Below, piece after piece: positions 1-31,206 of a stretch of 55,573 nt of DNA (the first letter of the stretch is position 1; every line of letters begins with the position of its first letter). Source of the stretch: Deltaproteobacteria bacterium. GTDB lineage: Bacteria > Desulfobacterota > B13-G15 > RBG-16-54-18. A program made the position numbers and the translations under genes. The stretch lies in the NCBI GenBank assembly GCA_019308925.1, contig JAFDHG010000004.1, forward strand, positions 1 to 55,573. Reading direction: 5' to 3'. The notes beneath the pieces were generated by a model. It was given only the letters and a program-made list of their open reading frames with translations. It made no database searches and was not told where the DNA came from.

Positions 1-168
1 TCTACAGACTCTAACCGTAGAAAAACAATCTGCACTTGGCAATGGATTGCGAATTATTGTTTTTCCTTCGGCCAATGTAGCAATAAAGACAGCTCGTGTT
101 GTGTTAGATTTAGATCCAGGGATGGTAATAGTTCCTTTTAAATTTGATGGTGAAACAATGAATTTCAT
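1..168 (-). CDS. aroA: EPSP synthase-like protein, N-terminal fragment
   Basis: Partial gene running off the left edge; 56 codons are visible from an ATG at 168. The start is preceded by a strong AGGAGGAGGG ribosome site. The peptide begins MKFIVSPSNLKGTITIPGSK and continues with SNTTRAVFIATLAEG and NPLPSADC, which matches the N-terminus of 5-enolpyruvylshikimate-3-phosphate synthase (PGSKS phosphate-binding motif, LAEG, then the S-x-D segment). The family condenses shikimate-3-phosphate with PEP. It lies 16 bases after the IclR gene and is probably cotranscribed with it, which is not the usual aro context; it could be a paralogue with a specialised role. Only the N-terminus is available. Confidence 0.8.
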   Translation of the reverse strand, partial: MKFIVSPSNLKGTITIPGSKSNTTRAVFIATLAEGKTIIRNPLPSADCFSTVRVCR

Positions 169-2956: not shown

Positions 2957-2957
2957 C

Positions 2958-3919: not shown

Positions 3920-4473
3920 TAAAAGAATCCCCTTTCTTTTGCATGAAAAAAGAAGAGCTGGAAGGCCGCCAACACCAATGCATGCCCTATCTCCCCCCTC
4001 CTGATCATCCCCTTGATCTCCTGCAGGGGCACCAAGACTACCTCCAGGTCCTCCCCCTCATCCTGGCATGGTGGGGCCACCTTTTCTACATCCCTCCCCA
4101 GATAGACAAAAAAGCGGTTGTTGAAGAGGGCGGGTTGGGGAGAGAGTTCTCCCAACAATTCTACTTCCCGGGCCTTATATCCCGTTTCTTCCATAAGCTC
4201 ACGCCGAGCAGATTCCAAGGGATCATCACCCTGATCCACCAACCCCCCGGGGGTCTCCAAGGTAACCCCCTTTATCCCATGCCTGAACTGCCTCACCATC
4301 ACCACTTCTAAGGAAGGAGTCAAGGGTATAACGGTTACCCAATCGAGGGTCTCGATCACATAAAAGTCATGAGTCTTGCCAGTGCGAGGCGAAAGGACGG
4401 TGTCAATACGAACGCTGAACAGGGAATAATCGGACTCTTTAACACTTTTGATGAGCGGCCAATCTTTGACCAT
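3919..4473 (-). CDS. NUDIX hydrolase (ADP-ribose pyrophosphatase-like)
   Basis: 184 residues with a Nudix box at about 95-118 (GLVDQGDDPLES, then ARRELMEETGY); the first glutamate of the consensus is an aspartate while the catalytic REL-EE-G core is intact. FVIETLDWVTVIPLT-like strands before it and PQPALFNNRFFVYLG after it resemble the ADP-ribose/GDP-mannose pyrophosphatase group. ATG 4473 is preferred over the adjoining TTG because GGAG lies six bases ahead. It is embedded in the aromatic cluster and overlaps the LpdD-like gene, so it may clean up a nucleotide or CoA by-product, but this is inference. Confidence 0.88.
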   Translation of the reverse strand: MVKDWPLIKSVKESDYSLFSVRIDTVLSPRTGKTHDFYVIETLDWVTVIPLTPSLEVVMVRQFRHGIKGVTLETPGGLVDQGDDPLESARRELMEETGYKAREVELLGELSPQPALFNNRFFVYLGRDVEKVAPPCQDEGEDLEVVLVPLQEIKGMIRRGEIGHALVLAAFQLFFFHAKERGFF

Positions 4474-4621
4474 CAACTTCTCCTTTAAACGGGAGGAAAT
4501 CCATTATCTCCCTCAAAGACACCAAGGTTATTTTTCTTCTCCGATACTCTCCATGATCCATGAGCGCACCTAATAATACCCTTTCGTTCCTCGTGAGGCG
4601 ACCAGGGGCGTCTGACGTAAA

Positions 4622-5839
4622 TCAAGCCTTTTGTGATCGTATCATGTTATCTAAAACCTCCACTGCCCGTTTGGCAAAGGCAGGTTCGCTTATATGGACA
4701 TTCATCTCTTCGATGGGGATAGTATGCTTGATTATCTTTTTGAGCTCGTCTACAAAGATATGATCTGTCTGAGGATCAAAAAGCTCCATTCCTGGTTTAT
4801 CAGCTTCAGACCATCCTTGTTTCGGAATAAGCATATAAGTTGGCCCTTTAGATTCGTTTAGTTTTTCTCCGATGATCCGGGCAAACGCCTTCATCTCTTC
4901 AGACTCCATACGAACACAAAACCGTATATCATGAGAATATATCTTTCTTCCTTTTAGTTGATCAGGCATGGGGTAAGAAGGGCTGAAGACCGCGTTATCA
5001 AGCCCACCAGGTGCCAGAAGGAGGGGGACTCCAGTCCTGCCTGCTGTCTCAAGCCGCATCGGACCTATGCCTTTGCAATAACCACCAAACATCTCATCAG
5101 CTATCTCATGAAGGGTAAAATCAAGCACGCCAGCCACAAGACCCTGTTCAATGAATTCCTCCATAGCCATCCCCCCGCACCCATTGGCGTGAAAGGCGAC
5201 CATTTCGTATCCTTTTGCTTCCAAGAGGGGTTCAGCCTGAATGGCACAAGAAGAGTTAAGTCCATAAGCGGTCACGGCTATCATCGGTTTTCCCTTAAGA
5301 ACTTCACTCCCTTTTTCTATCATTCCGCATACTGCATGCGCTGCCTGCCCAAGAATCAGTCGAATAAATTCGTTGAACCCCAAAATATCCGCCACAGAAT
5401 GGAACATCACGATGTCTTTAGTACCTACATACTCCCGTACATCCCTGGAGGCCACTGTGGAAACCACCACCTTAGGGAGGCCAAAAGGAAGGGAACACAT
5501 GATTGCGGTGACAATGGCAGTACCCGTGCCTCCCCCCATTCCAAATACTCCATGGAGTTTGCCTTCTTCAAGCAAACGGTTTGCCAGGATAGTGCCACCC
5601 TCCTGAACAGCTTTAACAGCACCAGAGCGGTCTTGGTCGTTGATGAATTGATTGAGATTGTACCCTGCAGCGGCTGCGACTTCTTCTCGCGTGATATCAG
5701 GTGTGGTTAACGGCCCCCCTAGGGTTCCGATGTCCATGAGAATTGGATTGATATCAAACTCTTGCACACAATCTTTAACGTATGCCGCTTCCCTTCCTTT
5801 AGTATCAAGGGTGGCTATAATAAGCACCTGTTTCTTCAC
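4622..5839 (-). CDS. Tm-1-like ATP-binding protein (UPF0261), copy 2
   Basis: A 405-residue member of the UPF0261/Tm-1-like family, named after the tomato Tm-1 protein, which has an ATP-binding N-terminal domain. Visible features are the N-terminal LIIATLDTKGREAAYVKDCV, the GVFGMGGGTGTAIVTAIM glycine loop, the FHANGCGGMAMEEFIEQG segment, and APGGLDNAVFSP. It begins at GTG 5839, 13 bases after the paralogue at 5853-7124. The two copies are only distantly similar and may form a heteromer. The biochemical role of bacterial members is not established; here the family sits between UbiD and UbiX, suggesting a link to aromatic metabolism. Confidence 0.88.
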   Translation of the reverse strand: MKKQVLIIATLDTKGREAAYVKDCVQEFDINPILMDIGTLGGPLTTPDITREEVAAAAGYNLNQFINDQDRSGAVKAVQEGGTILANRLLEEGKLHGVFGMGGGTGTAIVTAIMCSLPFGLPKVVVSTVASRDVREYVGTKDIVMFHSVADILGFNEFIRLILGQAAHAVCGMIEKGSEVLKGKPMIAVTAYGLNSSCAIQAEPLLEAKGYEMVAFHANGCGGMAMEEFIEQGLVAGVLDFTLHEIADEMFGGYCKGIGPMRLETAGRTGVPLLLAPGGLDNAVFSPSYPMPDQLKGRKIYSHDIRFCVRMESEEMKAFARIIGEKLNESKGPTYMLIPKQGWSEADKPGMELFDPQTDHIFVDELKKIIKHTIPIEEMNVHISEPAFAKRAVEVLDNMIRSQKA

Positions 5840-5852
5840 TTTTTTATCTTTA

Positions 5853-7124
5853 CTATGGAGTATCCTTCTTCAAGGTCTGCTCGAGGGCTTCTACAACTGT
5901 CCGGGCAAACTTTGGGGTATTAATGTGGGCGTCAACCTCTATGATTTCTATCTCCGGGTCCAGGTTCTTCTTCAGTTCATCCATGAAGGTTTGGTCTAAA
6001 TTCGGGTCATAAAGTGCACCACCCTCGACGCTTAGCGAGGAGAAACCCTTGGTGGGGATCAAGAATTTTACTAACTTCTTGTCCTTGTGCTTATTCAGTT
6101 TTTCCGCCACTGCCCGGGTGATAATCTGCATCTCTTCAGCGCTTGTTCTCGCTTGAACTCTCATAGCATCTTGAACCAGGAGCTTCCTCTCAGCCAGCCT
6201 TCGGGAGACCCAGAGGGGATCAGCCTTATCTCTCCTCTCAATGGGGCCACAACTTATCATGTCAAACCCGCAAGGGGCAAGGATGTAGGGTATGCCTTGG
6301 TTACAGGCTGCCTCCAGCCTGTCCGGCCCAGCGGCGCGATTGCCCCCTAATAGATACTCGCTAAAGCCGGCCGGCACCAGATCGATAAAGGCCCCGAACA
6401 ATCCCTGGTTGACCAGGTCTTCCGCAGCTCGGTCGCCCAATCCGGTAGCATGAAAGGAGACTATATTATAATTCTTCTCCAGAAGTTCCCTTACATAGTG
6501 GGCACCTTTATCGCAAAAACCAAGCTCCGTGAGTGCAATGGTGGGCCTTCCCTCCTTCTCAGGGGGCTCAAATCCTTCAACCATTCCGCATATAGCATTA
6601 GCGCCATTGACCATCAGACTTCTCACTAAGGGATTTAGGCCCACGGTGTCAACCACACTGTGCATCACCGTTATGTCCCTGACCCCAAAATATTCCGCAA
6701 GCCTCTTGGCATATGCCGGCATGGCTGCTACGCTTGATATCAAAACCTTGGGCACCCCAAAGGGCAAAGCCCTCATTGCGGTGAGGGACAGGGAGGTGCC
6801 CGTCATTCCACCAACCGCTATAACCCCCTGAAGTTCCCCAGATTCATATAGTTCAAGCACCTTTTTCTTCAATCCCTCGGCCATCATAGAGGTAGCCTTC
6901 TCCCTTTCTTTTGTCAACACCTCCTTGATCTTTTCTACGGTCGTTCCACCGGCATGGGCTATTTCTTCGCATGAAATCTCTGCCCTTAACGAGGGTATAA
7001 TCCCTCCAGTACCTATGCTAACATCAATAAGTATGGTTTTATGCCCTCGCCGTTCTATATACTCTCTTAACAACCGAAGGCCCTCTTCCCTTTCATCCAG
7101 CATACCAATGACGACAATTGCCAT
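5853..7124 (-). CDS. Tm-1-like ATP-binding protein (UPF0261), copy 1
   Basis: 423 residues of the same family as its downstream neighbour: VVIGMLDEREEGLRLLREYI at the start, GVIAVGGMTGTSLSLTAMRA as glycine loop, FHATGLGDRAAEDLVNQGLF, and PCGFDMISCGPIERRD. Starts at ATG 7124 behind GGGGGTGAGCG. The gap to the UbiD gene is 124 bases and holds a small CCCTCACCC/GGGGAGG stem. Being duplicated within one operon is the point of interest; see findings. No catalytic function is claimed. Confidence 0.88.
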   Translation of the reverse strand: MAIVVIGMLDEREEGLRLLREYIERRGHKTILIDVSIGTGGIIPSLRAEISCEEIAHAGGTTVEKIKEVLTKEREKATSMMAEGLKKKVLELYESGELQGVIAVGGMTGTSLSLTAMRALPFGVPKVLISSVAAMPAYAKRLAEYFGVRDITVMHSVVDTVGLNPLVRSLMVNGANAICGMVEGFEPPEKEGRPTIALTELGFCDKGAHYVRELLEKNYNIVSFHATGLGDRAAEDLVNQGLFGAFIDLVPAGFSEYLLGGNRAAGPDRLEAACNQGIPYILAPCGFDMISCGPIERRDKADPLWVSRRLAERKLLVQDAMRVQARTSAEEMQIITRAVAEKLNKHKDKKLVKFLIPTKGFSSLSVEGGALYDPNLDQTFMDELKKNLDPEIEIIEVDAHINTPKFARTVVEALEQTLKKDTP

Positions 7125-18386: not shown

Positions 18387-19700
18387 ATGGAGGAAAAAGA
18401 AAACTATATCAATATCATCCTCGACAGCATCCCTGATGGTGTCTTGACCGTGGACAACGAGTGGCGAATAACCTCCTTTAACAAATCGGCGGAGAGGATA
18501 ACCGGTTTCTCAAAGCAAGAGGCCATCGGCCAATATTGCTATGAAATATTTCGAACTAATGTCTGCATGGACAGTTGCGCCCTGCGGGAGACGATGCAGA
18601 CAGGGCAGAACATCGTCAATAAAGAAATCAACATCCTCGACAAATCAAACCAAGAGATACCGGTCAGCATCAGTACGGCCGTCCTCCAGAACGAAAAGGG
18701 TGAGATCATCGGAGGAGTGGAGACCTTCCGCGACCTGTCTTTGATCAAGGAAATGGACAAAGAGATCCACGAAAAGTACTCCTTTCACGACATCATCAGC
18801 AAACATCCCTCCATCGTGAACATATTTCGCATCCTCCCCGATATTGCACGCAGCGAGGCCACCGTCCTCATCCAGGGGGAAAGCGGTACGGGCAAGGAGC
18901 TCTTCGCCCAGGCCATCCACAACCTCAGCCTCAGGAGCGAGGGCCCACTGGTGAAGGTGAACTGTGGTGCCCTCCCTGAGACCCTTTTAGAATCAGAGCT
19001 CTTTGGCTATCTAAAGGGGGCCTTTACAGATGCCAAGCGCGACAAACCGGGCAGGTTTAAGCTGGCCGAGGAAGGGACCATCTTTCTGGATGAGATCGGT
19101 GATATCCCTCCTGGGATCCAGGCGAAACTCCTGCGGGTACTGGAAAGCAAAGAATACGAACCCCTGGGAGGGACCTCAACCATAAAGGCAGACGTCCGGG
19201 TAGTGGCCGCCACCAATAAGGACCTCCAAAGACTGGTCAGGCTGGGGCAGTTTAGAGAGGATCTTTACTATAGGCTCAATGTGGTTAAAATAGAGCTGCC
19301 CAGCCTGAAGGAGCGCAGAACGGATATCCCCCTCCTCACCGAACATTTCATCAAAAAGTTTAACAAGAAGACCGGAAAGGAGATCCACGGCGTCTCTGAT
19401 GAGGTCATGAACGTCCTCATGAATTATTCCTATCCAGGCAACATCAGGGAGTTGGAGAATATCATTGAACATGCCTTTATCCTCTGTAAGGGGTCTCAGA
19501 TCCAATGGGAACACCTACCCAGCTATCTGCGGGACCAAAAGGTCCCAGTGGCGAAAAAGAGGTCCATTAAGGAAATGGAAGAGGAGCACATCCTCCATGC
19601 CCTACAAAAATGCGGTGGCAACATGACCAAGACCGCCAGGGAATTGGGGATACATCGGACCACTTTGTGGCGCAAGCTGAGGAATATGAGCGCTGATTAG
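18387..19700 (+). CDS. PAS-domain sigma-54-dependent activator
   Basis: 437 residues in three parts: a PAS sensor (about 7-120), an AAA+ sigma-54 interaction domain (about 135-370) and a Fis-type helix-turn-helix (about 390-435, NMTKTARELGIHRTTLWRKL). The AAA+ part has GESGTGKELFAQ (Walker A), the sigma-54 loop GAFTDA, GTIFLDEIGD (Walker B) and FREDLYYRLNVV. The PAS domain carries C51, C60 and C64 in a CX8CX3C pattern, suggesting redox or metal sensing. It lies directly before repeated TTGCA boxes and a -24/-12 promoter, so it is the probable activator of the cofactor-assembly operon. It lacks a receiver domain, hence no two-component input. Confidence 0.94.
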   Translation: MEEKENYINIILDSIPDGVLTVDNEWRITSFNKSAERITGFSKQEAIGQYCYEIFRTNVCMDSCALRETMQTGQNIVNKEINILDKSNQEIPVSISTAVLQNEKGEIIGGVETFRDLSLIKEMDKEIHEKYSFHDIISKHPSIVNIFRILPDIARSEATVLIQGESGTGKELFAQAIHNLSLRSEGPLVKVNCGALPETLLESELFGYLKGAFTDAKRDKPGRFKLAEEGTIFLDEIGDIPPGIQAKLLRVLESKEYEPLGGTSTIKADVRVVAATNKDLQRLVRLGQFREDLYYRLNVVKIELPSLKERRTDIPLLTEHFIKKFNKKTGKEIHGVSDEVMNVLMNYSYPGNIRELENIIEHAFILCKGSQIQWEHLPSYLRDQKVPVAKKRSIKEMEEEHILHALQKCGGNMTKTARELGIHRTTLWRKLRNMSAD

Positions 19701-19787
19701 TTGCATATTGCAATACTGTTGCAATTTGTATTTTGAGAAAGAGTGCTTATATTATGATAAGGTTAGAAAAGATTCTGTTGCATTATG
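19701..19787 (+). promoter_or_regulatory. Repeated TTGCA boxes, candidate activator-binding sites
   Basis: Three related boxes lie 75-160 bases upstream of the sigma-54 promoter: the palindrome TTGCA-TAT-TGCAA (19701-19713), TGTTGCAATTTG (19717-19728) and TGTTGCATTATG (19776-19787). The spacing and dyad character fit upstream activating sequences for the Fis-type helix-turn-helix of the neighbouring activator. Confidence 0.6.
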
Positions 19788-19860: not shown

Positions 19861-19876
19861 TGGCACAAAAAATGCT
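19861..19876 (+). promoter_or_regulatory. Sigma-54 (-24/-12) promoter
   Basis: TGGCAC-N6-TGCT with exactly ten bases between the GG (19862-19863) and GC (19874-19875) elements. The only mismatch to the YTGGCAC-N5-TTGCW consensus is the first T of the -12 box. The predicted start is near 19887, three bases before the ATG of the first NifX-like gene. Confidence 0.85.
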
Positions 19877-19889
19877 GTAATTTTAAGAG

Positions 19890-20255
19890 ATGAAGGTCGC
19901 CATCCCCATAAACGGAGATCGCATCGCCCCTAGGTTGTCTCTGGCAAAAGAGATCATGGTAGCAGAGCTGCAGGGCAGAAGGAAGATAGGGATAGAAAAG
20001 GTGGATATCACACATCTGCACCCGATGGAGGTTCCAGACTTCCTCGCCTCGAAGGGGGTTACCAAGGTCATCGCCGGAGGGGTGGATTGGTATCAGCAGG
20101 AGATCTTCAGGTTGCACCACATAGATGTCACCTGGGGGATTATGGGGAATGTGGACGAAGTCCTGGCCTTCTACCTAAGTAAGGGGCTCCAACTGGGGAT
20201 GGGTCCATGCCCTCCCAGGAGGAGACGGAGGCGTTTTCGAGGGTTTCACTTCTAA
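19890..20255 (+). CDS. NifX-like (FeMo-cofactor biosynthesis domain) protein 1
   Basis: 121 residues with the RNase-H-like fold of the NifX/NafY/orange-protein domain (MKVAIPINGDRIAPRLSLAK, FLASKGVTKVIAGGVDWYQQ). It lacks the usual F-G-R-C motif of its relatives, having APRLSLAKEI instead, and ends in a basic CPPRRRRRRFRGFHF tail. Such proteins bind and carry metal-sulfur cofactors or their precursors. First gene behind the sigma-54 promoter; the ATG must be 19890 since the domain begins there, leaving a leader of only a few bases. The lost cysteine motif suggests a structural or regulatory version. Confidence 0.82.
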   Translation: MKVAIPINGDRIAPRLSLAKEIMVAELQGRRKIGIEKVDITHLHPMEVPDFLASKGVTKVIAGGVDWYQQEIFRLHHIDVTWGIMGNVDEVLAFYLSKGLQLGMGPCPPRRRRRRFRGFHF

Positions 20256-20273: not shown

Positions 20274-20540
20274 ATGCCTTGGGGAGATGGAACAGGTCCA
20301 GCCGGTTTTGGTCCAATGACCGGCCGAGCCGCAGGTTACTGTGCCGGATACCCAGTTCCTGGCTATGCCAATCCCTATGTCCCCAGATGGGGAGGTAGAG
20401 GAAGGGGCTGGTGGGGCCGCGGATTCCGGGGTCGAGGCCGGGGATTCTGGGGTTGGGGGCGTGGATTCCGTTGGGGGTATTCCCCTTATGGATATGCCCC
20501 CTACTATGGCTATACACCCTATGGCTATCCACCCTATTAA
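20274..20540 (+). CDS. Gly/Arg/Trp/Tyr-rich DUF5320-like protein A
   Basis: 88 residues. The N-terminus has the DUF5320 signature [20 protein letters not shown], followed by PVPGYANPY, a run of RG/WG-rich repeats and a YGY/PPY tail. It ends before the acidic coiled-coil tail found in the homologue at 23340, and the next gene (20639) supplies just such a tail, so the two may be a split version. Good ribosome site AAGGAGGTGTTAAT. It is nearly identical to the 23340 gene over the first 36 residues including upstream DNA. Function of the family is unknown; it recurs beside NifX/Mrp genes. Confidence 0.8.
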   Translation: MPWGDGTGPAGFGPMTGRAAGYCAGYPVPGYANPYVPRWGGRGRGWWGRGFRGRGRGFWGWGRGFRWGYSPYGYAPYYGYTPYGYPPY

Positions 20541-20638
20541 CGATTACGCCGTGGGCTCGGCTGGCGCTGGTTTACACCATACTGGTACCCCTAGTGGTAA
20601 AACCATGAGCTAAATCTTTTTCGAAGGAGGTGAAAGAC

Positions 20639-20830
20639 ATGTGGCCGTGGTATGGATACTGGAATCCTTGGAGAGGGGGGTGGCCTGGATACTGGGGGGC
20701 AACACCTTATGCCTGGCCGTGGGGGCCTATGCCCAAGGAGCAGGAGATAGCCATGCTGGAAGACCAGGCCCGGATGCTTGAAAGTGAACTGGAAAGCATC
20801 AGAAAGAGGCTGGAAGAGCTTAAGAAATAA
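20639..20830 (+). CDS. Small Trp-rich protein with DUF5320-like coiled-coil tail
   Basis: 63 residues from ATG 20639, eight bases after GGAGG. The first half is Trp/Pro/Gly-rich (MWPWYGYWNPWRGGWPGYW) and the second half is a short coiled coil, PKEQEIAMLEDQARMLESEL, which matches the tail of the DUF5320-like proteins at 21302 and 23340. The 98-base stretch before it, after the 20540 stop, shows no other gene. Likely the second half of a split DUF5320 gene or an independent small partner. Confidence 0.7.
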   Translation: MWPWYGYWNPWRGGWPGYWGATPYAWPWGPMPKEQEIAMLEDQARMLESELESIRKRLEELKK

Positions 20831-20840
20831 GAGGTGAAAT

Positions 20841-21233
20841 ATGTCTAATGGATTTGGTGGAGGCAGAGGTATGGGACGCGGTTTTAGGGGAGGTATGGGG
20901 TTTGGCTTCCGTGGCAACTCTCCTCCCTGGCCTTACGTGGGTATAGGTAGAGGAGGATTGCCAAGATGCGGCTACTTCCTCAGTGGTGCTGCTGGTGCAC
21001 CAGCAGCATGGCCGTACCAACAAGCTCCCTATCCAGCTAGCCAGGGATTTGGTGTCGGGCAGGGCTCATATCCTCCCTATGCAGCAGCGTCACCCACTTT
21101 TGGTAACACTCCCTTCGCCCCGCAGGTAACCCCGGAGCAGGAGCTTGATTTTCTAAAGAACCAAGCGGAGGCAATAAAGGGACAGCTGGAGCAGATTGAG
21201 GCCAGGATGCGCGAGCTGGAGGGTGAAGAGTAA
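20841..21233 (+). CDS. Gly-rich DUF5320-like protein B
   Basis: 130 residues: a GGGRGMGRGFRGGMGFGFRG start, a Pro/Tyr/Ala-rich centre with SQGFGVGQGSYPPYAAAS, and a C-terminal coiled coil PEQELDFLKNQAEAIKGQLE ending in RELEGEE. The tail is shared almost word for word with the 21302 protein and in type with 21633 and 23340. Low-complexity head plus coiled coil suggests a scaffold that multimerises through the tail. Ten bases after the preceding gene, with AAGAGGTGAAAT as ribosome site. Confidence 0.75.
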   Translation: MSNGFGGGRGMGRGFRGGMGFGFRGNSPPWPYVGIGRGGLPRCGYFLSGAAGAPAAWPYQQAPYPASQGFGVGQGSYPPYAAASPTFGNTPFAPQVTPEQELDFLKNQAEAIKGQLEQIEARMRELEGEE

Positions 21234-21301
21234 GATATCATCATGTATAGCCGATGATGGATAACCAGCACTCCTCATTGGCACAGTAAAGGAGGTACGT
21301 T

Positions 21302-21592
21302 ATGCCAGGATTCGATGGTACCGGCCCTCGTGGGCTGGGTCCAATGACTGGTTGGGGTAGAGGATTTTGTGTTGTCCCATTATCACCCACTTCGCCGACA
21401 TATATAGGAAGAAGCTATCCCCCATACGGCGTACCCTTTGGAGCGAGATCGAGTACTGCAGGTGCAGTTCCGTTTGCTCCTCAGATGACCCGTGAGCAGG
21501 AGCTTGATTTTCTGAACAACCAGGCCCAGGCCTTAAGAGGGCAACTGGAGCAGATAGAGACCAGGATTCAGCAACTGGAAAGTGAGTCTTAA
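21302..21592 (+). CDS. DUF5320-like protein C
   Basis: 96 residues. It opens with GFDGTGPRGLGPMTGWGRGF, the DUF5320 N-terminal signature, then a short Pro/Tyr linker and the coiled-coil tail REQELDFLNNQAQALRGQLE. Ribosome site AAGGAGG eight bases before ATG 21302. The shortest complete head-linker-tail copy of this family in the window and a useful reference for the split (20274/20639) and fused (21633) versions. Function unknown. Confidence 0.78.
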   Translation: MPGFDGTGPRGLGPMTGWGRGFCVVPLSPTSPTYIGRSYPPYGVPFGARSSTAGAVPFAPQMTREQELDFLNNQAQALRGQLEQIETRIQQLESES

Positions 21593-21632
21593 GCATTGAT
21601 TTTGGCGATTAACAACTATTAAGGAGTGAATT

Positions 21633-22253
21633 ATGAGGATTGCTATTTCCGCTACAGGCCCGACCCTGGATGCTGAGGTAGATCCACGTTTTGGCCGATG
21701 TCAGTACTTCATTGTCGTTGACCCGGATACAATGGAGTTTGAAGCCCTGGAGAACTCTAACGCCATGGCTGCTGGTGGGGCAGGAATTTCCACCGGCCAG
21801 ATGATTGCCGGTAAAGGGGTAGAGGCAGTGCTCACCGGCAACTGCGGCCCTAATGCCTACCAGGTGCTGTCGGCCGCTGGAATTCAGGTGATAACCGGAG
21901 TTTCGGGAAAGGTGCATGATGCTGTCCAAGCCTACAAACCTGGACAATTTCAAGCTACTTCACAACCTACTGTAGATGCTCACTACGGTATGAGCTATGG
22001 TGGAGGTGGTGGCATGGGTGGAGGCATGGGCAAAGGCATGGGCATGGGCAGAGGCATGGGCAGAGGCATGGGCAGAGGCATGGGCATGGGTGGAGGCACA
22101 GGGGCTGGAATGGTGCCACCGGTTAGTCCAGCACCACAGCCGGCGAGTCCGGAGCAGGAACTTGAAGCGCTTAAAAACCAATCACAGATGCTAGCGCAAC
22201 AACTAGCTGAGATTCAACGTCACATCGAGGAGTTAGAAAAGAAAAAGAAGTAA
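21633..22253 (+). CDS. NifX-domain protein fused to a GMG-repeat and DUF5320-type coiled coil
   Basis: 206 residues in three blocks. Residues 1-115 are a NifX/orange-protein domain with the canonical DPRFGRCQYFIVVDPDTMEF, and NCGPNAYQVLSAAGIQVITG. Residues about 125-160 are repeats of GMGRGMGRGMG. Residues about 170-206 are the coiled coil PEQELEALKNQSQMLAQQLA followed by a lysine tail. It therefore joins the cofactor-binding domain and the DUF5320-type tail in one chain, direct evidence that the two families act together. Methionine-rich repeats could bind soft metals such as Cu(I), which is inference. The 25123 protein is a shorter relative without the coiled coil. Confidence 0.87.
   Translation: MRIAISATGPTLDAEVDPRFGRCQYFIVVDPDTMEFEALENSNAMAAGGAGISTGQMIAGKGVEAVLTGNCGPNAYQVLSAAGIQVITGVSGKVHDAVQAYKPGQFQATSQPTVDAHYGMSYGGGGGMGGGMGKGMGMGRGMGRGMGRGMGMGGGTGAGMVPPVSPAPQPASPEQELEALKNQSQMLAQQLAEIQRHIEELEKKKK
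22010..22100 (+). repeat. 12-base tandem repeat encoding GMGR
   Basis: Consecutive copies of GGCATGGGCAGA and variants (GGCATGGGCAAA, GGCATGGGCATG, GGCATGGGTGGA) inside the NifX-fusion gene. Such a repeat can change length by slippage, in units of four residues. Confidence 0.8.
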
Positions 22254-22334
22254 GAAAGCTCACCGCTTTACCTATTGCAGCGATAGCGGGATATTGCTGG
22301 TTATATCAAGGCAGCCTAAGGCAGGAGGAATGCA

Positions 22335-22784
22335 ATGACTTCATCATGGGAGCAGTTTGAAGAACTCATCAAAGCCCAGATGAGAAAAATATATTCTGAG
22401 ACAGCTATTGAGCATTCCATGAACCCAAGAAACTTAGGCGATATGGAGGATGCCGATGGCTTTGCCAGGGTGACTGGCACCTGTGGTGATACCATGGAGA
22501 TATGGATCAGGGCAAAGAACGGCAGTGTTGTCGATGCCACCTTTATGACTGACGGCTGTGGAACCAGCATTGCCTCAGGCAGCATGGTCACCGAGATGGT
22601 AAAGGGAAAAAGTATCAGCGAGGCTCGAAAGATTAGTCAGCAGGATGTTTTGAGTGCCTTAGGCGGACTGCCAGAGGAGAGCCAACACTGTGCCCTTCTG
22701 GCAGCAGATACGCTGAAAGAGGCGATAAGAGATTACCTGGCAATGAAAAAAGACCCCTGGAAAAGGGGTTACCGCAAACATTAG
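22335..22784 (+). CDS. IscU/NifU-like iron-sulfur scaffold 1
   Basis: 149 residues. The three conserved cysteines of the scaffold are recognisable: GTCGDTMEIWIRAK, FMTDGCGTSIASGS and ESQHCALLAADTL, with the IscU helix ALGGLPEESQHC where the usual K-x-H-C is replaced by S-Q-H-C. It assembles [Fe-S] clusters for transfer. Start ATG 22335 follows GCAGGAGGAATGCA. A second scaffold lies at 27735. No cysteine desulfurase is seen in the window, so sulfur must come from another donor. Confidence 0.88.
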   Translation: MTSSWEQFEELIKAQMRKIYSETAIEHSMNPRNLGDMEDADGFARVTGTCGDTMEIWIRAKNGSVVDATFMTDGCGTSIASGSMVTEMVKGKSISEARKISQQDVLSALGGLPEESQHCALLAADTLKEAIRDYLAMKKDPWKRGYRKH

Positions 22785-22866
22785 GGAAAGGAATTGAGGA
22801 TGGCTCCCGAAGTTTCGGTTACAGATAGGGTAGAATCCTCCAGATTCTTTTGAAGAAGGGATAAGC

Positions 22867-23289
22867 ATGACCTTGAAAGATTACTATCAGATACTTGGTG
22901 TAAGTAAAGATTCCACTAGCGATGATATCAGGAAGGCCTTCCGACAGCTGGCCTTGCGCTATCACCCTGATCACAACCCCGAAAATTCGAAAGATGCTGA
23001 GGAAAAATTTAAAGAAATAAATGAGGCCTATGAAGTGCTCGGTGATGATCAAAAAAAGCGGGAGTACGACCACTTGATAAGCTGGCCAAGCTACAGGCAG
23101 AAAACAGTTGTGGTTGAAGACATCTTCGAGGATACCTTCACAGATAGCATAGACCTAAACTTGATAAGAGAAATACTGCAGACGTTCGCTGAGCTAGATC
23201 CCAGTTGCAGGGTCTTTAGCCGCCGGCGGTCATGGACTTGCCAACGTCAGCGGGGATGGCGGTGTCGCGGACGATGGTGGCAAGACTAA
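22867..23289 (+). CDS. J-domain (DnaJ-like) protein
   Basis: 140 residues. Residues 4-67 form a complete J domain: [20 protein letters not shown], the HPD triad in [11 protein letters not shown], and [20 protein letters not shown]. No Gly/Phe or zinc-finger domains follow; residues 68-110 are helical and acidic and the last 30 are Arg/Trp/Cys-rich ([19 protein letters not shown]). J-domain proteins deliver clients to Hsp70, and HscB does this for the IscU scaffold, so the adjacent NifU-like protein at 22335 is the likely client. The odd tail might be native or the result of a frameshift. Confidence 0.85.
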
Positions 23290-23339
23290 GGCGTGGAAGA
23301 TCCAGAGGATTTCACTTTTAACTGAAAGGAGGTGTTATT

Positions 23340-23711
23340 ATGCCTTGGGGAGATGGAACAGGTCCAGCTGGTTTTGGTCCAATGACCGGTAGGGCGGCAG
23401 GCTATTGCGCTGGCTACCCAGTTCCTGGCTATGCCAACCCTTATGGCTTTGGTTGGGGCAGAGGCTGGGGCAGAGGCAGAGGCTGGGGCAGAGGCTGGGG
23501 CTGGGGGTATGCACCGTATGGGTATACACCTTATGCCGCTGGCTATTCACCCTATGGGGCTGGGTATTCACCCTATGCTGCCCCATGGGGGCAGCCCCCT
23601 ACCAAGGAACAGGAGGCTGAGTTCCTGAAGGATCAGCAGGAGGCCCTACAGGGGCAGATGGAGGAGATCAACAAGCGGCTCCAAGAGCTCTCAACTGAGG
23701 AGAAAAAGTAG
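23340..23711 (+). CDS. DUF5320-like protein D (duplicate of protein A, full length)
   Basis: 123 residues: the [20 protein letters not shown] head, an [16 protein letters not shown] repeat, [20 protein letters not shown] and the coiled-coil tail [20 protein letters not shown]. The first 36 residues and about 25 bases of upstream DNA almost equal those at 20274, so this is a local duplication about 3.07 kb apart; this copy keeps the tail that the other lacks. Ribosome site AAAGGAGGTGTTATT. Function unknown, possibly a scaffold for the cofactor proteins around it. Confidence 0.82.
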
Positions 23712-25122: not shown

Positions 25123-25533
25123 ATGAAAATAGCGATCAGTTCTACTGGAAATACCCTGGATTCGCCCATAGATCCCAGGTTTGGCCGCTGTCAGTTCTTC
25201 ATCTTTGTAGACCCTGAGACCATGGAGTTCGAGGCCGTGGAGAATCAGGCCATGATGGCAGCCGGTGGTGCAGGCCCGCAGGCGACCCAGTTCATCGCCA
25301 ACAAAGGGGTGGAAGTAATCATTACCGGCAATGTAGGGCCCAATGCCGCCTCCTCGCTCATGGCCGCTGGGCTCAAGATCTATGTAGGGGCCTCGGGCAC
25401 GGTCAGGGAGACCCTTAACCTGTTCAAAAACAATCAACTGCAAGATGTAAGCGATGCAACAGTAGGATCCCACTTCGGCATGGGTAGAGGCATGGGCGGC
25501 GGAATGGGAAGAGGAGGAAGGAGAAGACAATAG
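25123..25533 (+). CDS. NifX-like protein 3 with GMGRGMGGGMGRG tail
   Basis: 136 residues from ATG 25123 (MKIAISSTGNTLDSPIDPRF). NifX domain with DPRFGRCQFFIFVDPETMEF and GNVGPNAASSLMAAGLKIYV, then a short GMGRGMGGGMGRGGRRRQ tail. It is a close relative of the N-terminal half of the 21633 fusion but ends where that protein begins its coiled coil. Orange protein, which carries a Mo-Cu-S cluster, belongs to this domain family; a similar cargo is possible but cannot be shown from sequence. Confidence 0.9.
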   Translation: MKIAISSTGNTLDSPIDPRFGRCQFFIFVDPETMEFEAVENQAMMAAGGAGPQATQFIANKGVEVIITGNVGPNAASSLMAAGLKIYVGASGTVRETLNLFKNNQLQDVSDATVGSHFGMGRGMGGGMGRGGRRRQ

Positions 25534-25985: not shown

Positions 25986-26213
25986 ATGCCTAGAGGTGAC
26001 GGCACAGGCCCCCCTGGGGGTTCTGGCAGAGGGACGGGGCAAGGCAGAGGGGGTGGAATGGGCAGGGGTAGAATGGGTGGCACTAGGCCAGGGGCTGGAC
26101 CAGCAGGAGAGTGTGTTTGCCCCCAATGTGGTGCCACGGCCCCTCACCAAGTTGGGGTCCCCTGCTACCAGGTAAATTGCCCTCAGTGTGGCACCCCCAT
26201 GGTCAGAAAATAA
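25986..26213 (+). CDS. Gly-rich small protein with zinc-ribbon C-terminus
   Basis: 75 residues. The N-terminus PRGDGTGPPGGSGRGTGQGR echoes the DUF5320 signature, followed by GGGMGRGRMGG and a C-terminal double-CxxC ribbon (CVCPQCGATAPHQVGVPC, then NCPQCGTPMVRK). It joins the Gly/Met-rich head of the local family to a metal-binding ribbon. Ribosome site AGGAAGGAGGGACATCTT. Function unknown; likely part of the same assembly set. Confidence 0.8.
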   Translation: MPRGDGTGPPGGSGRGTGQGRGGGMGRGRMGGTRPGAGPAGECVCPQCGATAPHQVGVPCYQVNCPQCGTPMVRK

Positions 26214-26272: not shown

Positions 26273-26887
26273 ATGGATTTAGTAGAGGAATTTCAACGGC
26301 GGTTTGGGGGTAGATGGATTGGGGTTAAATTCTATTATGATGAACTCCCCACTTCAAACGAAAATCCTATAAGGGATGTCCGTTTCTGCGAGGCCATCAC
26401 AAAGTCCATGATGCGTCCTGTGCTCTTAACCCCCAAAGACCTCAACTGCCGCGGGGCCCGTTATGTGTTTGGCTGGGATAATGGGGTCAAAGAGGAGATG
26501 GTGGAGAGGTTTCACCAGCAGGAGGGCTTCAGCGAGATAGGGGCGGAAGAATTGGTGCAAGAAGTCCCGAGGATCAATGGTTCCCTCAAGGGGATCGGCC
26601 TAAATGTCAAGAATGGCCCCGATATATTGTTATCCTATCTCCAGCCCGGGCAGGTAATGAAGTTGCTTAGGACCTATCAGGTCCACTTTGGAGAGGAGCT
26701 AACCGTTGACCTCTCGAGTATTGTCTCGATATGTGGACATGTGGCCGTGGAGGCCTTTGTCGAGAAACGAATCGCCCTCTCCTTTGGCTGCAGTGATGCC
26801 AGGAAATATGGGGGGATAACCAGGGATAGGGTGGCCATCGGCGTACCTACTAGGGTGGCAATGGAGCTATTGGAGGAGAAAAGATGA
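26273..26887 (+). CDS. DUF169 family protein
   Basis: 204 residues with the DUF169 pattern: WIGVKFYYDELPTSN, VRFCEAITKSM, NCRGARYVFGWD, the VSICGHVAVEAFVEKRIALS segment and FGCSDARKYGGI. Four conserved cysteines suggest metal or cofactor binding. The family is common in anaerobes and methanogens, with no established activity. It overlaps the MinD-ferredoxin gene as ATGA and starts the tightly coupled block that runs to 31206. Confidence 0.85.
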   Translation: MDLVEEFQRRFGGRWIGVKFYYDELPTSNENPIRDVRFCEAITKSMMRPVLLTPKDLNCRGARYVFGWDNGVKEEMVERFHQQEGFSEIGAEELVQEVPRINGSLKGIGLNVKNGPDILLSYLQPGQVMKLLRTYQVHFGEELTVDLSSIVSICGHVAVEAFVEKRIALSFGCSDARKYGGITRDRVAIGVPTRVAMELLEEKR

Positions 26888-27732
26888 TCATATCCGTGGC
26901 CAGCGGCAAGGGAGGGACTGGAAAGACCACCATCGCCACCAATATGGCCCTTGCATTGGAGAGGGTCCAACTCATCGATTGCGATGTAGAAGAACCCAAT
27001 GCCCACCTCTTCCTCAAGCCCCAGATAGAAAAGAAGATAACTGTCGCCATATCCATCCCCTGCATTGACGAAGAAAAGTGCACCTACTGCGGACGATGCG
27101 CCGAGGCCTGTGAGTTCAACGCCCTTGTCGTCTTCCCCCAGAGCGTCCTGGTCTTCGATGAACTCTGCCATGGCTGTGGCGTCTGCTCTTATGTCTGCCC
27201 TGAGGAGGCCATAACGGAAGAAGAAAAGGAGATAGGGTTGATAGAAATGGGGAGCAGGGATGGGATTGAATTCATACATGGCCGGCTCAATGTGGGAGAA
27301 CCCATGGCCACGCCTATCATCAGGATGGAAAAGTCCCTCATAAAAAAAGAGGGGACAATCATCCTGGATGCACCTCCTGGGACATCCTGTCCTGTCATCG
27401 AGACGGTAAAGGGGAGCGATTTCTGCCTCCTGGTGACTGAACCCACCCCCTTTGGCCTGAACGACCTGAGGCTGACGGTGGAGATGTTGAAGAAGTTGGA
27501 TATACCCATGGGTATCCTCATCAATCGGGCCGATGTAGGGAACACAGGGGTAGCAGAATACTGCCAGCAGGAGGGGATCCCCATCTTCCTCGAGATCCCC
27601 ATGGATCGCAGAATCGCCAAGCTCTATTCTGAAGGAACCCCCCTGATAGGGGAACTTCCGGAGTACCGGGATAAATTCATCGACCTCTTTGCGCGGATAA
27701 AGGAGATGGTAAACGGAGAAGGGGGGAAATAA
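26884..27732 (+). CDS. MinD-superfamily ATPase with inserted 2[4Fe-4S] ferredoxin domain, copy 1
   Basis: 282 residues. Deviant Walker A IISVASGKGGTGKTTIATNM, then an inserted ferredoxin at about residues 62-105 with two full clusters (CTYCGRCAEACEFNA and CHGCGVCSYVCPEEA), then DAPPGTSCPVIETVKGSDFC and TEPTPFGLNDLRLTVEML. Such ATPases occur in pairs in anaerobes; the DVU2103/DVU2104 pair of Desulfovibrio vulgaris belongs to the orange-protein complex. Likely couples ATP hydrolysis to cluster or electron transfer onto NifX-type acceptors. Overlaps DUF169 by four bases. Confidence 0.93.
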   Translation: MIISVASGKGGTGKTTIATNMALALERVQLIDCDVEEPNAHLFLKPQIEKKITVAISIPCIDEEKCTYCGRCAEACEFNALVVFPQSVLVFDELCHGCGVCSYVCPEEAITEEEKEIGLIEMGSRDGIEFIHGRLNVGEPMATPIIRMEKSLIKKEGTIILDAPPGTSCPVIETVKGSDFCLLVTEPTPFGLNDLRLTVEMLKKLDIPMGILINRADVGNTGVAEYCQQEGIPIFLEIPMDRRIAKLYSEGTPLIGELPEYRDKFIDLFARIKEMVNGEGGK

Positions 27733-27734
27733 GG

Positions 27735-28175
27735 ATGGATCGGAAAGACCTTTACCGTCAGGACCTGGGGCCAGAGGAACCGATTGGTTATATCGTCTAC
27801 AACAAGGTCATCCTCGACCACTTCAAAAATCCCCGCCACGCAGGCGAGATAGAGGACCCCGACGGTGTGGCCCTGGTGGGTGATCCCGATTGTGGCGACC
27901 ATATACAGCTCTATATAAAGATAGAAGATGACAAAATCGCCGATATCAAGTATAAGGTCTTCGGCTGTGCCGCAGCCATCGCCACCACCAGCATCCTGAG
28001 TGAATTGGCCATGGGAAAAGATCTGGATGATGCATTACAGATTACCGATGACGACGTCATTGAAGCAGCAGGAGGGGTACCAGCGAAAAAGACCCACTGC
28101 TCCCTGCTGGGAGTGGTGGGGCTCCACGCGGCCATTGCAGACTACCTGATGAGAGCGGAAAAGGGGGGGCGATGA
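27735..28175 (+). CDS. IscU/NifU-like iron-sulfur scaffold 2
   Basis: 146 residues. Scaffold cysteines in GDPDCGDHIQLYIKI, YKVFGCAAAIATTSILSELA and VPAKKTHCSLLGVVGLHAAI, with the typical KKTHC instead of the SQHC of the 22335 copy. N-terminal HFKNPRHAGEIEDPDG is the NifU/IscU start motif. It lies between the two MinD-ferredoxin genes, two bases after one and overlapping the other as ATGA, so cluster delivery to or from these ATPases is likely. Confidence 0.93.
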   Translation: MDRKDLYRQDLGPEEPIGYIVYNKVILDHFKNPRHAGEIEDPDGVALVGDPDCGDHIQLYIKIEDDKIADIKYKVFGCAAAIATTSILSELAMGKDLDDALQITDDDVIEAAGGVPAKKTHCSLLGVVGLHAAIADYLMRAEKGGR

Positions 28176-29071
28176 AACAACTGGCCATTTTAAGCGGAAA
28201 GGGGGGGACAGGGAAGACCACCTTGGTGGGTGCCTTTTCATCCTTGGTCGAGAATAAGGTATTGGCAGACTGCGACGTAGATGCCGCTGACCTATTTCTC
28301 ATCCTCGAGCCCGAGACCATTGAGAAGAATGACTTCTATTCAGGACGTAAGCCGAGGGTGGACAAGGAAAAATGCACGGAATGCGGCATATGCACCGAGT
28401 TGTGCCGCTATGATGCCATTGAAGATGGCAAAGTAGATCTCCTCGAGTGTGAGCGATGTGGTCTCTGTGCACTGGGATGCCCGGAGGAGGCCATCACTAT
28501 GGAGGATGCCTTCTCTGGAGAGTGGTTCATCTCTGAGACGCGGTATGGGCCCATGATCCATGCCCGGCTGGGTATCGGGGAGGAAAATTCGGGCAAGTTG
28601 GTGGCAGAGGTGAGAAAAGTAGCCCAATCGATAGCGAAGGAGAGGAAGATAGAACTCATCATCATAGACGGGCCACCGGGGATCGGGTGCCCTGTAATCT
28701 CTTCCCTCGCAGGGGCAAATCTTGCCCTGGTCGTAACGGAGCCTACTGTTGCCGGCATCCATGACCTAGAGAGGCTGGTCAAGCTGGCCCAACACTTTGA
28801 CATCCCCCCCATGATCTGTATCAACAAGTACGACATAAACCCAGCCCAGACCCTTCAGATCGAGGACTATTGTCGGCGCGAGGACCTCACATTGGTCGGA
28901 AAAGTACCCTTTGACATAGCCGTAGTTAAGGCCATGGTGGAGAAAAAGACGGTGATGGAATATCCTTGTCCGGCAATCCAGGATGCCATCAGGGATACCT
29001 GGCGAAGGGTGGAAGAGGTCCTTAACGAGAAGAGGACTCCCCATGACCCAAAGGGAGGAGGATCTGATTAA
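28172..29071 (+). CDS. MinD-superfamily ATPase with inserted 2[4Fe-4S] ferredoxin domain, copy 2
   Basis: 299 residues, paralogous to the 26884 protein. Walker A LAILSGKGGTGKTTLVGAFS, ferredoxin insert at about 65-110 (CTECGICTELCRYDA and CERCGLCALGCPEEA), DGPPGIGCPVISSLAGANLA and TEPTVAGIHDLERLVKLAQH. Pairing of two different copies suggests a heterodimer. Its start overlaps the scaffold gene as ATGA and its end overlaps the 86-residue gene by 29 bases, so all are translationally coupled. Confidence 0.93.
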   Translation: MKQLAILSGKGGTGKTTLVGAFSSLVENKVLADCDVDAADLFLILEPETIEKNDFYSGRKPRVDKEKCTECGICTELCRYDAIEDGKVDLLECERCGLCALGCPEEAITMEDAFSGEWFISETRYGPMIHARLGIGEENSGKLVAEVRKVAQSIAKERKIELIIIDGPPGIGCPVISSLAGANLALVVTEPTVAGIHDLERLVKLAQHFDIPPMICINKYDINPAQTLQIEDYCRREDLTLVGKVPFDIAVVKAMVEKKTVMEYPCPAIQDAIRDTWRRVEEVLNEKRTPHDPKGGGSD

Positions 29072-29303
29072 GGAGGGATGGCAGAGGCGATTCATCGCCT
29101 CTGAGCCCAGGTTGAGCGAGATGGTGGAGATGTATGAGGAAACAGGTTTTGAGGTGCATCTGGAGCCCATCTCCGCCGTGGAAAAACCAGATGAGGAGAG
29201 CGAGGAATGCCAAAAGTGCCAGATCTGTTTCGAGGGAGTCGAGGATCAGTATAGGGTGATCTTTACCAGGCCCAAACACGGGGACGAGTGGCAGGTGGAA
29301 TGA
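29043..29303 (+). CDS. Small 86-residue protein with CxxCxxC motif
   Basis: From ATG 29043, inside the end of the MinD copy 2 gene. The sequence is charged, with PRLSEMVEMYEETGFEVHLE and then SEECQKCQICFEGVEDQYRV; the CQKCQIC cluster may hold a metal. No family recognised. Its stop overlaps the DUF364 start as ATGA, so it is embedded in the coupled block and likely works with the ATPases on either side. Confidence 0.75.
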   Translation: MTQREEDLIKEGWQRRFIASEPRLSEMVEMYEETGFEVHLEPISAVEKPDEESEECQKCQICFEGVEDQYRVIFTRPKHGDEWQVE

Positions 29304-30025
29304 AGATCCTCGAAGACCTCCTTGATCATTTCTCCCCTCAAGATATACTGGTGAGAGATGTGAGAATTGGGGCACATTGGACGGCTGTCTTGACTTGCGG
29401 TTGTGGTCTTGCATCCACTATGGCAGAACCCCCTCCGCACGCAGGCCCGAGTGTGCGGGAGGCAGGGAAATTAATTGAAAAAGACGCCGCCGAACTCATG
29501 AAACTGGCCTGCTCAGAGCACCTCATGGAGGCATCAATAGGTATGGCGACCATGAATTCGCTCATAGAGATCGAGGAAGATAAGTGGTCAGAAGCCAATG
29601 CCTCGGAGATCCTCGCTGCCCATGGGTCTGGGAAAGATGTGGCCATTGTCGGCCACTTTCCGTTTGTGCCCAAACTGAAGGAGACCGCCCGAAACCTCTG
29701 GATCATTGAGAAGAGGCCACAACCAGGGGATCTCGAAGCAGATAGGGCTTTGGATATCCTTCCCCGCTGTCAGGTAGTAGGGATAACGAGCACCGCCTTT
29801 ATTAACCATACCCTGGAATCTCTGCTTCAACTGTGCCAGGGTGCCTTTGTCATGCTCCTTGGCCCCACAACGCCTCTCACCCCTCTCTTGTTCGATTATG
29901 GGATAGATGCCATCTCCGGGTCCAAGGTGGTGGATGAAGAGCAGGTATTGCGTTATGTAAGTCAGGGGGCCACCTTTCAGCAACTTCACCACGCCGGGAT
30001 AAAACTCCTCACCATGACGAGATGA
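29300..30025 (+). CDS. DUF364 family protein (putative heavy-metal chelation)
   Basis: 241 residues from ATG 29300. DUF364-type features are the N-terminal VRDVRIGAHWTAVLT, GCGLASTM, and the Rossmann-like C-terminal half with DVAIVGHFPFVPKLKE, VVGITSTAFINHTLESLL, LLGPTTPLTPLLFDYGIDAI. The family has been suggested to bind heavy metals on the basis of structure and context, without a proven reaction. It overlaps the neighbour genes by four bases on both sides, tying it to the metal-cofactor block. Confidence 0.85.
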   Translation: MKILEDLLDHFSPQDILVRDVRIGAHWTAVLTCGCGLASTMAEPPPHAGPSVREAGKLIEKDAAELMKLACSEHLMEASIGMATMNSLIEIEEDKWSEANASEILAAHGSGKDVAIVGHFPFVPKLKETARNLWIIEKRPQPGDLEADRALDILPRCQVVGITSTAFINHTLESLLQLCQGAFVMLLGPTTPLTPLLFDYGIDAISGSKVVDEEQVLRYVSQGATFQQLHHAGIKLLTMTR

Positions 30026-31206
30026 GTCTCGAACAGAGTGAAAAGGTAGCGTTCCTCTCCATCATCTTCAACGCCCTTCTTACCGTAATGAAGTATGTGC
30101 TGGCCCTTCTGTCAGGAAGCGTCGCCCTGATGGCAGATGCCATTCATTCCCTCACCGATGTGGTCTCCTCAGCCTCGGTTTTGATGGGGATCAAACTTTC
30201 CAAAAGGCGTTCCAAAACGTTCCCCTACGGTCTCTATAAAGTAGAAAATTTGGTCTCGTTGGTCATGTCCCTGCTCATCTTCGTTGCTGGTTATGAAATC
30301 TTCCGAGAGGCCTTTGCCCCTCATGAGCCCTTGCATGTGGAACTCATCCCCTGGGCCATCGCAGGTGTTACCGTGGCTATCTTGGCCACGTATTTGTTTT
30401 CTCGGTACCAATTGCGAATAGGCCGGCAAATTAATTCACCGAGCGTCATCGCCGACGCCCAGCACATCAAGACCGATATGTTCTCATCCATTATCATTAT
30501 GGTAGGTCTGGTAGGGGGGCTCTTCCGGATTCCTTATCTCGACAAAGGGGCCGCTCTGGTGATCGTTTTCTTCATCGCCAGAACAGGGTACCGGATCTTG
30601 GTGGATGCCATACGGGTCCTCCTGGACGCCTCCCTGGACTTTGAGACCTTGGATAGGGTCAAGACCCTCATCCTCTCCGAGCCACAGGTGAAGGGAATAA
30701 AGGGACTCTGGGGGAGGAATTCAGGACGATATAGGTTTATCGAGGCCGACCTTACCCTCAAGGTGAGGGACCTGGAGAAGGCCCATTTTGTCAGCGATAA
30801 GATCGCAGAGCGGATCAAAACAGAGATACCCTATGTGGACCATGTCCTCATCCACTATGAACCTGTCCCCAAAGAGACAATCACTTTTGTCGTCCCCCTG
30901 GATAGGGATAAAGAGACCATCTCGGAACACTTCGGTGAAGCCCCCTACTTCTATCTGATCACCCTTCAGAACAAAGACGGAGGTGTGTTGGAGGAGGGAT
31001 TCCTCAACAACCCTCACTTGCAGGAGGAGGAAGGGAAGGGTATAAAGGTAAGTGAATGGTTGGTTCAGAAGGGGGTGGACACGGTCTTCACCAAGAAGAG
31101 CTTCGAGGGGAAAGGCCCCTTTTACGTCTTCTCCAATGCAGAGGTGGAGATGATCCTCACCCCAGAGAAGAGGCTTCGTGATCTGGAGTTCAGCATCAAA
31201 AACTAA
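30022..31206 (+). CDS. Cation diffusion facilitator fused to a NifX-type domain
   Basis: 394 residues. Residues 1-290 are a CDF/ZT metal exporter with six predicted membrane segments and its motifs: VALMADAIHSLTDVVSSASV (membrane metal site), ADAQHIKTDMFSSIIIMVGL, and the cytoplasmic C-terminal domain ending in YVDHVLIHYEP. Residues about 295-394 are an extra NifX/FeMo-cofactor domain (FVVPLDRDKETISEHFGEAP, YFYLITLQNKDG, VSEWLVQKGVDTVFTKKSFE). The fusion links membrane metal transport to the cofactor-carrier family of this cluster. The NifX part has no F-G-R-C cysteine. Metal specificity unknown (Fe, Mn, Zn possible). Confidence 0.92.
   Translation: MSLEQSEKVAFLSIIFNALLTVMKYVLALLSGSVALMADAIHSLTDVVSSASVLMGIKLSKRRSKTFPYGLYKVENLVSLVMSLLIFVAGYEIFREAFAPHEPLHVELIPWAIAGVTVAILATYLFSRYQLRIGRQINSPSVIADAQHIKTDMFSSIIIMVGLVGGLFRIPYLDKGAALVIVFFIARTGYRILVDAIRVLLDASLDFETLDRVKTLILSEPQVKGIKGLWGRNSGRYRFIEADLTLKVRDLEKAHFVSDKIAERIKTEIPYVDHVLIHYEPVPKETITFVVPLDRDKETISEHFGEAPYFYLITLQNKDGGVLEEGFLNNPHLQEEEGKGIKVSEWLVQKGVDTVFTKKSFEGKGPFYVFSNAEVEMILTPEKRLRDLEFSIKN

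Follow-up and report, generated by a model that had tools for sequence, protein, structure and literature searches.

A NifX-domain protein with a Met/Gly/Arg linker and a DUF5320-type helix, encoded in a probable orange-protein-like operon of a deltaproteobacterium

The DNA analysed in this study, hereafter the window, is a stretch of 55,573 nucleotides (contig JAFDHG010000004.1, assembly GCA_019308925.1) from a member of the Deltaproteobacteria. At positions 21633-22253 of its forward strand lies an open reading frame in which a NifX domain is joined to a DUF5320 region. This gene belongs to a segment, 20630-23289, that we refer to as the cassette; the cassette and its surroundings comprise the following features.

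18387-19700: cognate sigma-54 activator with a PAS domain
19701-19724: palindromic TTGCA(A) element upstream of the sigma-54 site
19861..19876, + strand: sigma-54 promoter-like site, TGGCACAAAAAATGCT
20274..20540, + strand: DUF5320 copy without coiled coil at the 5' flank of the cassette (DNA alignment, Pfam)
20630..20830, + strand: stand-alone DUF5320 protein with the same helix as the fusion (Pfam E 6e-8; heptad core 8/8)
20841..21233, + strand: stand-alone DUF5320-like protein with the same helix (26.9 bits, just below the cut-off of 27)
21302..21592, + strand: stand-alone DUF5320 protein with an MPGFDGTGPRG...GPMTG N-terminus and a helix at residues 64-95 (Pfam E 3e-17; AlphaFold2)
21633-22253, + strand: NifX-DUF5320 fusion, 206 amino acids
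22335..22784, + strand: NifU_N scaffold protein, member of the cassette (Pfam)
22867..23289, + strand: last gene of the cassette, encoding a DnaJ-domain protein (Pfam E 7e-28)
23340..23711, + strand: full-length resident DUF5320 protein at the 3' flank of the cassette (Pfam E 8e-27), single copy and at the same place in genomes L125 and L126
23801..24688, + strand: Mrp/NBP35-type (NUBPL) P-loop iron-sulfur carrier (PF10609 E 3e-97)
25126..25533, + strand: resident paralogue, in which the NifX domain carries a short GMGRG tail but lacks the coiled coil
26884-27732 and 28172-29071, + strand: two Orp3/Orp4-like MinD-type ATPases with ferredoxin domains (CbiA and Fer4)

A NifU-like gene lies between the two MinD-type ATPase genes, within 26884..29071. 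The promoter-like site is found at the same place in relatives, identical in L125 and L127 and with one base different in L126, and together with the upstream palindromic element it is conserved in these three genomes of the same family. The window looks like an operon of the orange protein (ORP) type to which DUF5320 genes have been added. Three further genes of the region are worth recording. A small zinc-ribbon-like protein encoded at 25986-26213 starts with MPxGDGTGPxG as DUF5320 proteins do and is present in 22 of 27 loci; a 'putative heavy-metal chelation' protein of the DUF4213/DUF364 type (29288-30025) belongs to the same cluster and adjoins the fusion gene in several Dehalococcoidia; and an apparent cation-efflux transporter (30022-31206) bears a C-terminal NifX domain (PF02579 at 30910-31176, 50.8 bits).

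The product of the fusion gene is divided as follows.

21633..21986, + strand: NifX/ORP-fold domain, residues 1-118 (Pfam, AlphaFold2, Foldseek, residue conservation)
21699-21701, + strand: Cys23, conserved in 80 of 85 fused proteins (motif count)
21843-21845, + strand: Cys71, conserved in 70 of 85 (motif count)
21981-21983, + strand: His117, conserved in 67 of 85 (motif count)
21987..22136, + strand: disordered cationic Met/Gly/Arg linker, residues 119-168 (repeat finder, AlphaFold2, composition, codon diversity)
22149..22247, + strand: tail module of the DUF5320 type, a coiled-coil helix at the C terminus, residues 173-205 (Pfam, AlphaFold2, heptad pattern)

The Nitro_FeMo-Co profile (PF02579) matched residues 13-102 (21669-21938; E 2.3e-25, 89 bits for a cut-off of 26.3), and the DUF5320 profile (PF17253) matched residues 122-201 over profile positions 16-99 of 99 (E 1.7e-11, 45.5 bits for a cut-off of 27). 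As the Gly-rich part falls within the latter match, DUF5320 consists of the repeat plus the helix and not of the helix alone; the DGTGPxGxGPMTG motif with which many DUF5320 proteins begin is absent from the fusion, in which the match starts at profile position 16. In the AlphaFold2 model, which was built on 65 sequences, the NifX domain has a pLDDT of about 97 up to residue 110, most of residues 120-168 fall below 50 and are predicted to be disordered, and a single helix follows at 173-205. With a pI of 4.7 the domain is acidic, the linker at 11.7 is strongly basic, and the whole protein has a pI of 5.9. The initial annotation had recognised a canonical FGRC NifX domain, a Met/Gly/Arg tandem repeat and a coiled-coil tail, and all three parts are present: Cys23 is Cys in nearly all fused relatives, and Tandem Repeats Finder located the repeat at 22011-22090.

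We wondered how widespread this architecture is. Relatives were drawn from public genomes and from genomes of the host's phylum, and the coiled coil was identified with an HMM, a strict heptad expression having retrieved only 38 fused proteins. Among 88 NifX proteins with a tail of at least 30 residues, 85 carry the coiled coil, the window copy included. The fusion, which had been taken for a single case, is thus a common combination, and a one-off gene fusion or an annotation accident was rejected on the strength of these 85 proteins. Fifty-six of them come from Chloroflexota, mostly Dehalococcoidia, and about a dozen phyla are represented in all (Thermodesulfobacteriota, Zixiibacteriota, Aerophobota, Cloacimonadota, Planctomycetota, Poribacteria, Bathyarchaeota and others), although cases limited to one phylum may include mis-binned contigs because most of the sources are metagenome bins. 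The genomes of the host's phylum, which were queried with the whole protein, yielded the same kind of tail, and some clear relatives have no tail or no repeat. In a few relatives (L021, L115 and G076) a two-[4Fe-4S] ferredoxin is attached to the GMGRG linker; two of these genes are

L115:890-1690: NifX-GMGRG protein with a C-terminal two-[4Fe-4S] ferredoxin, coiled coil present
L021:1468-2322: NifX-GMGRG protein with a C-terminal two-[4Fe-4S] ferredoxin, without coiled coil

Such proteins, probably under-counted as the query was incomplete at its 5' end, would join a carrier and its likely acceptor in one chain.

The DNA of the GMGRG repeat scored up to 111 with Tandem Repeats Finder, and at 22041-22086 it contains 3.8 copies, 100% identical, of the 12-base unit GGCATGGGCAGA. 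Recent slippage of the repeat was nevertheless rejected as sole cause for the family, in spite of this identical stretch in the window copy: every synonymous codon of Gly (four) and of Arg (six) occurs in the linkers, the commonest Gly codon averaging only 43% of a segment, and it is therefore the protein repeat that is conserved. In the 85 fused proteins, a biased set in that one of the six peptides used to search the public genomes, GMGRGMGM, favours Met repeats, Gly makes up 49% of the Gly-rich segment, Met 22%, Arg 9.8% and aromatic residues 1.4%; acidic residues are nearly absent and the mean net charge is +3.1. The part that precedes the helix in stand-alone DUF5320 proteins of the same loci has 5.5% Met and 18% aromatics. 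The middle residue of GxG triplets is most often Met in the fused proteins (505 of 1,075, or 47%); in the stand-alone ones Arg and Phe are the most frequent. Since NifX domains without helix but with short GMGRG tails exist, the resident paralogue at 25126-25533 among them, the Met repeat goes with the NifX domain and not with the helix. A repeat missing from all relatives, which the initial annotation had named among the grounds for refutation, is not what the family shows: Met is a trait of its linkers.

The tail is a module of the neighbouring DUF5320 proteins, as had been supposed. A 3-4-3-4 spacing separates eight positions that, over 79 tails, are predominantly hydrophobic (52-100%), the others being mostly polar; in five tails of the window 7-8 of the eight core positions are hydrophobic, against 1-2 of 17 elsewhere. 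The five genes named in the initial annotation do share this helix pattern; the start given for one of them, 20639, is incorrect and belongs to the open reading frame 20630-20830. The model of the 21302 product shows the same single helix at residues 64-95. Among the open reading frames of the gathered loci the helix occurred on no other type of protein, further matches being all DUF5320-like. The 3-4-3-4 pattern is the classic signature by which a coiled coil is predicted, and by itself does not decide between self- and cross-pairing. When the tails of the NifX fusion and of its DUF5320 neighbour were compared, a partial Mantel test that partly controls for phylogeny gave r 0.22 (permutation p 0.0085), and tails of partners in cis were no more alike than those of partners in trans. 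Co-variation between neighbouring tails is thus suggestive at best, and with so weak a correlation co-evolution was set aside as proof of pairing.

Linkage between the fusion and DUF5320 genes proved strong. Where enough upstream sequence was available, a DUF5320 gene lies upstream of the fusion within 300 bp in 62 of 77 loci and within 2.5 kb in 68 of 77. In the 27 loci with 5 kb on each side, a MinD-ferredoxin ATPase gene is found in 25, an Mrp gene in 19 and a NifU-type gene in 15; the two ATPases of this type in the window have neighbouring counterparts in 25 and 24 of the 27 loci. At the genome level, a NifX domain is encoded in all 108 DUF5320-positive genomes and in 52 of the 90 DUF5320-negative ones (198 phylum genomes; Fisher p 4e-16, a value that overstates the case, given the relatedness of the genomes and the scoring of each fused protein in both families). 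From this linkage and gene context, it is reasonable to propose that the DUF5320-type tail recruits partners. A seventh DUF5320 match elsewhere in the host genome (G000:C86:3075-3269) covers the first 62 profile positions only. In the literature that we searched, the name DUF5320 is scarcely mentioned and its function is not addressed.

Comparison with genomes of the same family bears on the origin of the fusion gene. In L125 and L126, one DUF5320 gene lies between a divergent NifX-like gene and Mrp in uninterrupted order. In the window, 20630-23289 lies between two DUF5320 copies (20274 and 23340) with near-identical 5' ends. The products of 20841, 21302, 21633 and 22335 have their nearest relatives in Dehalococcoidia, with 71-86% identity to L045 (84-86% for 20841..21233; 78.5% for the NifU_N protein 22335..22784, which reaches at most 59% in the sample of the host's phylum), whereas the closest relatives of the cassette flanks lie in the host's family, mostly at 70-91%. 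In the tree, too, the 21633 product groups within Chloroflexota, on branches of moderate support. The cassette, including the fusion gene, appears to have been acquired from Dehalococcoidia and to have entered an ORP-like operon that was already resident and under sigma-54 control, and such a transfer is the simplest account of 20630-23289. A third genome of the family, L127, has a different gene set at the same site (about 2400-6900, reverse complement), with a DUF5320 protein of the 20841 type and thioredoxin-like and Fe-S-like proteins among others; the event may therefore predate the species, or the site may be reused, and the L127 set suggests an insertion site that is reused or remodelled. 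Ahead of the resident DUF5320 gene at 23340, at 23200-23325, the end of a peptide in another frame, with its stop, resembles the RRRRRFRGFHF end of the divergent NifX-like gene 19890-20255 and is likely a duplication remnant.

The suggested link with orange protein was borne out. Among solved structures, 2wfb, the apo orange protein from Desulfovibrio gigas, matches the NifX domain best both in sequence and in fold (sequence E 4e-21; Foldseek E 1.8e-12, 1.0 A over 115 columns, 44% identity); further Foldseek matches are TM1290, MTH1175 and NifX. ORP is also the closest in the tree, the deep branches of which are only moderately supported. Cys23, Cys71 and His117 are conserved and are possible ligands. 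In the tail-less ORP clade most members keep Cys71, and nearly all have Ala at the position of Cys23.

Several readings of this protein can be weighed. The one that we prefer, although we would place it a little short of an even chance, is that the 21633 product is a tail-bearing, ORP-type metal-sulfide carrier whose linker holds or guides the cargo and whose coiled coil docks on co-expressed DUF5320 proteins. It builds on the observed fold, predicted disorder, shared helix module, gene linkage and operon-like layout, from which we infer the cargo identity, the heteromeric pairing and the direction of transfer. The NifX/ORP domain would hold the metal-sulfide cargo, and the flexible cationic linker, in which Arg brings charge and Met a soft thioether and a hydrophobic side chain, would, in the vicinity of the domain, hold or guide this anionic cargo. 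Coiled coils would form between copies of the C-terminal helix and between it and its counterparts in co-transcribed DUF5320 proteins, yielding a multi-protein assembly from which the cargo could move to the neighbouring Mrp, NifU and MinD-ferredoxin ATPases. That a cationic linker could handle an anionic metal-sulfide is proposed because of the precedent of IssA, which combines a NifX domain with a cationic, Gly-rich tail, stores thioferrate and reconstitutes ferredoxin (PMC5524996).

The same precedent offers an alternative, that the protein is an iron-sulfide store: anionic thioferrate would be wrapped by the cationic, Gly-rich tail, the coiled coil would assist in the assembly of a storage particle, and delivery would come second. 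In IssA, too, the NifX domain is joined to a disordered tail that is cationic and rich in Gly, and the protein oligomerises together with Fe and S; a non-thermophilic 'IssX' clade with Gly-rich tails has been noted (PMC5524996), on whose function the literature that we searched holds nothing beyond that paper; the 21633 linker is likewise cationic and predicted to be disordered. However, the IssA tail is rich in aromatics (14 of 70) while the fusion linkers have 1.4% aromatics and 22% Met, the 21633 protein has a pI of 5.9 and only 27% of the fused family exceed pI 8, and MTH1175, which belongs to the IssA clade (PMC5524996), lies outside the group formed by the 21633 product and D. gigas ORP in a tree from which IssA itself is absent. 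We regard storage as the main role as unlikely, though worth keeping in mind.

A more modest reading, which we rate as somewhat less probable still, is that the linker is a mere flexible spacer, with Met and Arg serving solubility, phase behaviour or nucleic-acid contact, and the coiled coil a handle for homo-oligomers that recruits nothing. The predicted disorder, the variable length of the linker (23 to 77 residues in the family) and its RGG-like composition agree with it, and the coiled coil may indeed only homo-oligomerise. Yet a mere spacer would hardly retain, in about a dozen phyla, Met where DUF5320 linkers have aromatics, nor would the strong genome linkage of the fusion to DUF5320 genes be expected.

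The initial annotation suggested that the Met repeat could hold Cu(I); in the corresponding reading the repeat would load the ORP domain with a Mo-Cu-S cluster. The starting points of this reading hold, since the Met enrichment of GxG positions is real across the family and the nearest solved relative is ORP, the kind of protein that holds this cluster (PMC6345978). But D. gigas ORP, a proven Mo-Cu-S carrier, belongs to a tail-less clade without the repeat, which is therefore not needed for the cluster; the Ala of that clade in place of Cys23 means that the cargo site may differ from that of ORP; and the repeat Mets are accompanied by no Cys or His. We consider this version improbable. The IssA iron-sulfide model would explain the cationic linker better than copper does, but not the Mets, the one part that the precedents found leave without explanation: they might bind Cu(I) or other metals as soft ligands, or might instead replace aromatics as flexible hydrophobic contacts. 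A role as FeMo-co carrier or nitrogenase NifX was rejected, as the 99% complete genome has no NifD.

These results reach beyond this locus. The DUF5320 helix is common to an ORP-type carrier and its genes track NifX, which gives DUF5320 a testable role in anaerobic metal-sulfur handling. ORP-like systems of many uncultured anaerobes are suggested to be larger than the five-protein Desulfovibrio complex, and the Met/Arg tail would stand as a second tail chemistry beside the aromatic/Arg tail of IssA. More tentatively, these proteins might form a widespread, undescribed anaerobic metal-sulfide assembly in which ORP-type carriers and DUF5320 proteins meet through the shared coiled coil and the Met/Arg repeat is a new soft cationic sleeve for a metal-sulfide polymer or a heterometal cluster.

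Among known systems, the small DUF5320 (PF17253) proteins share with the 21633 product the Gly/Arg-rich disordered stretch and the C-terminal heptad helix, and their genes adjoin its own; they differ in having no NifX domain, in the N-terminal DGTGPxGxGPMTG that many of them carry, and in having aromatics where the fusion has Met. IssA and 'IssX' (Pyrococcus furiosus PF2025 and relatives) are likewise proteins of anaerobes in which a NifX-type domain precedes a disordered cationic Gly-rich tail, whereas the 21633 product has Met for aromatics, an added coiled coil and no high pI. ORP (D. gigas 2wfb, DVU2108/Orp8) has the same fold, is nested in the same tree group and keeps similar gene company (Orp3/Orp4-like MinD-Fd ATPases, Mrp and a sigma-54 activator), but is a single domain without linker or coiled coil, with Ala in place of Cys23. 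In D. vulgaris the ORP complex is made up of Orp3 and Orp4, with ferredoxin motifs, Orp5, Orp8 (ORP) and Orp9 (MrpORP), under sigma-54 control (PMC6345978, PMC3897727); unlike the window, the complex as described contains no DUF5320 protein. MrpORP (DVU2109), which hands clusters to the ferredoxin-like Orp3/Orp4 (PMC6345978), represents a separate fusion event, in which a NifX-type domain is joined to a different part that handles clusters, a P-loop NTPase, and has CXHFGHCE and CDH motifs that are absent from the 21633 product.
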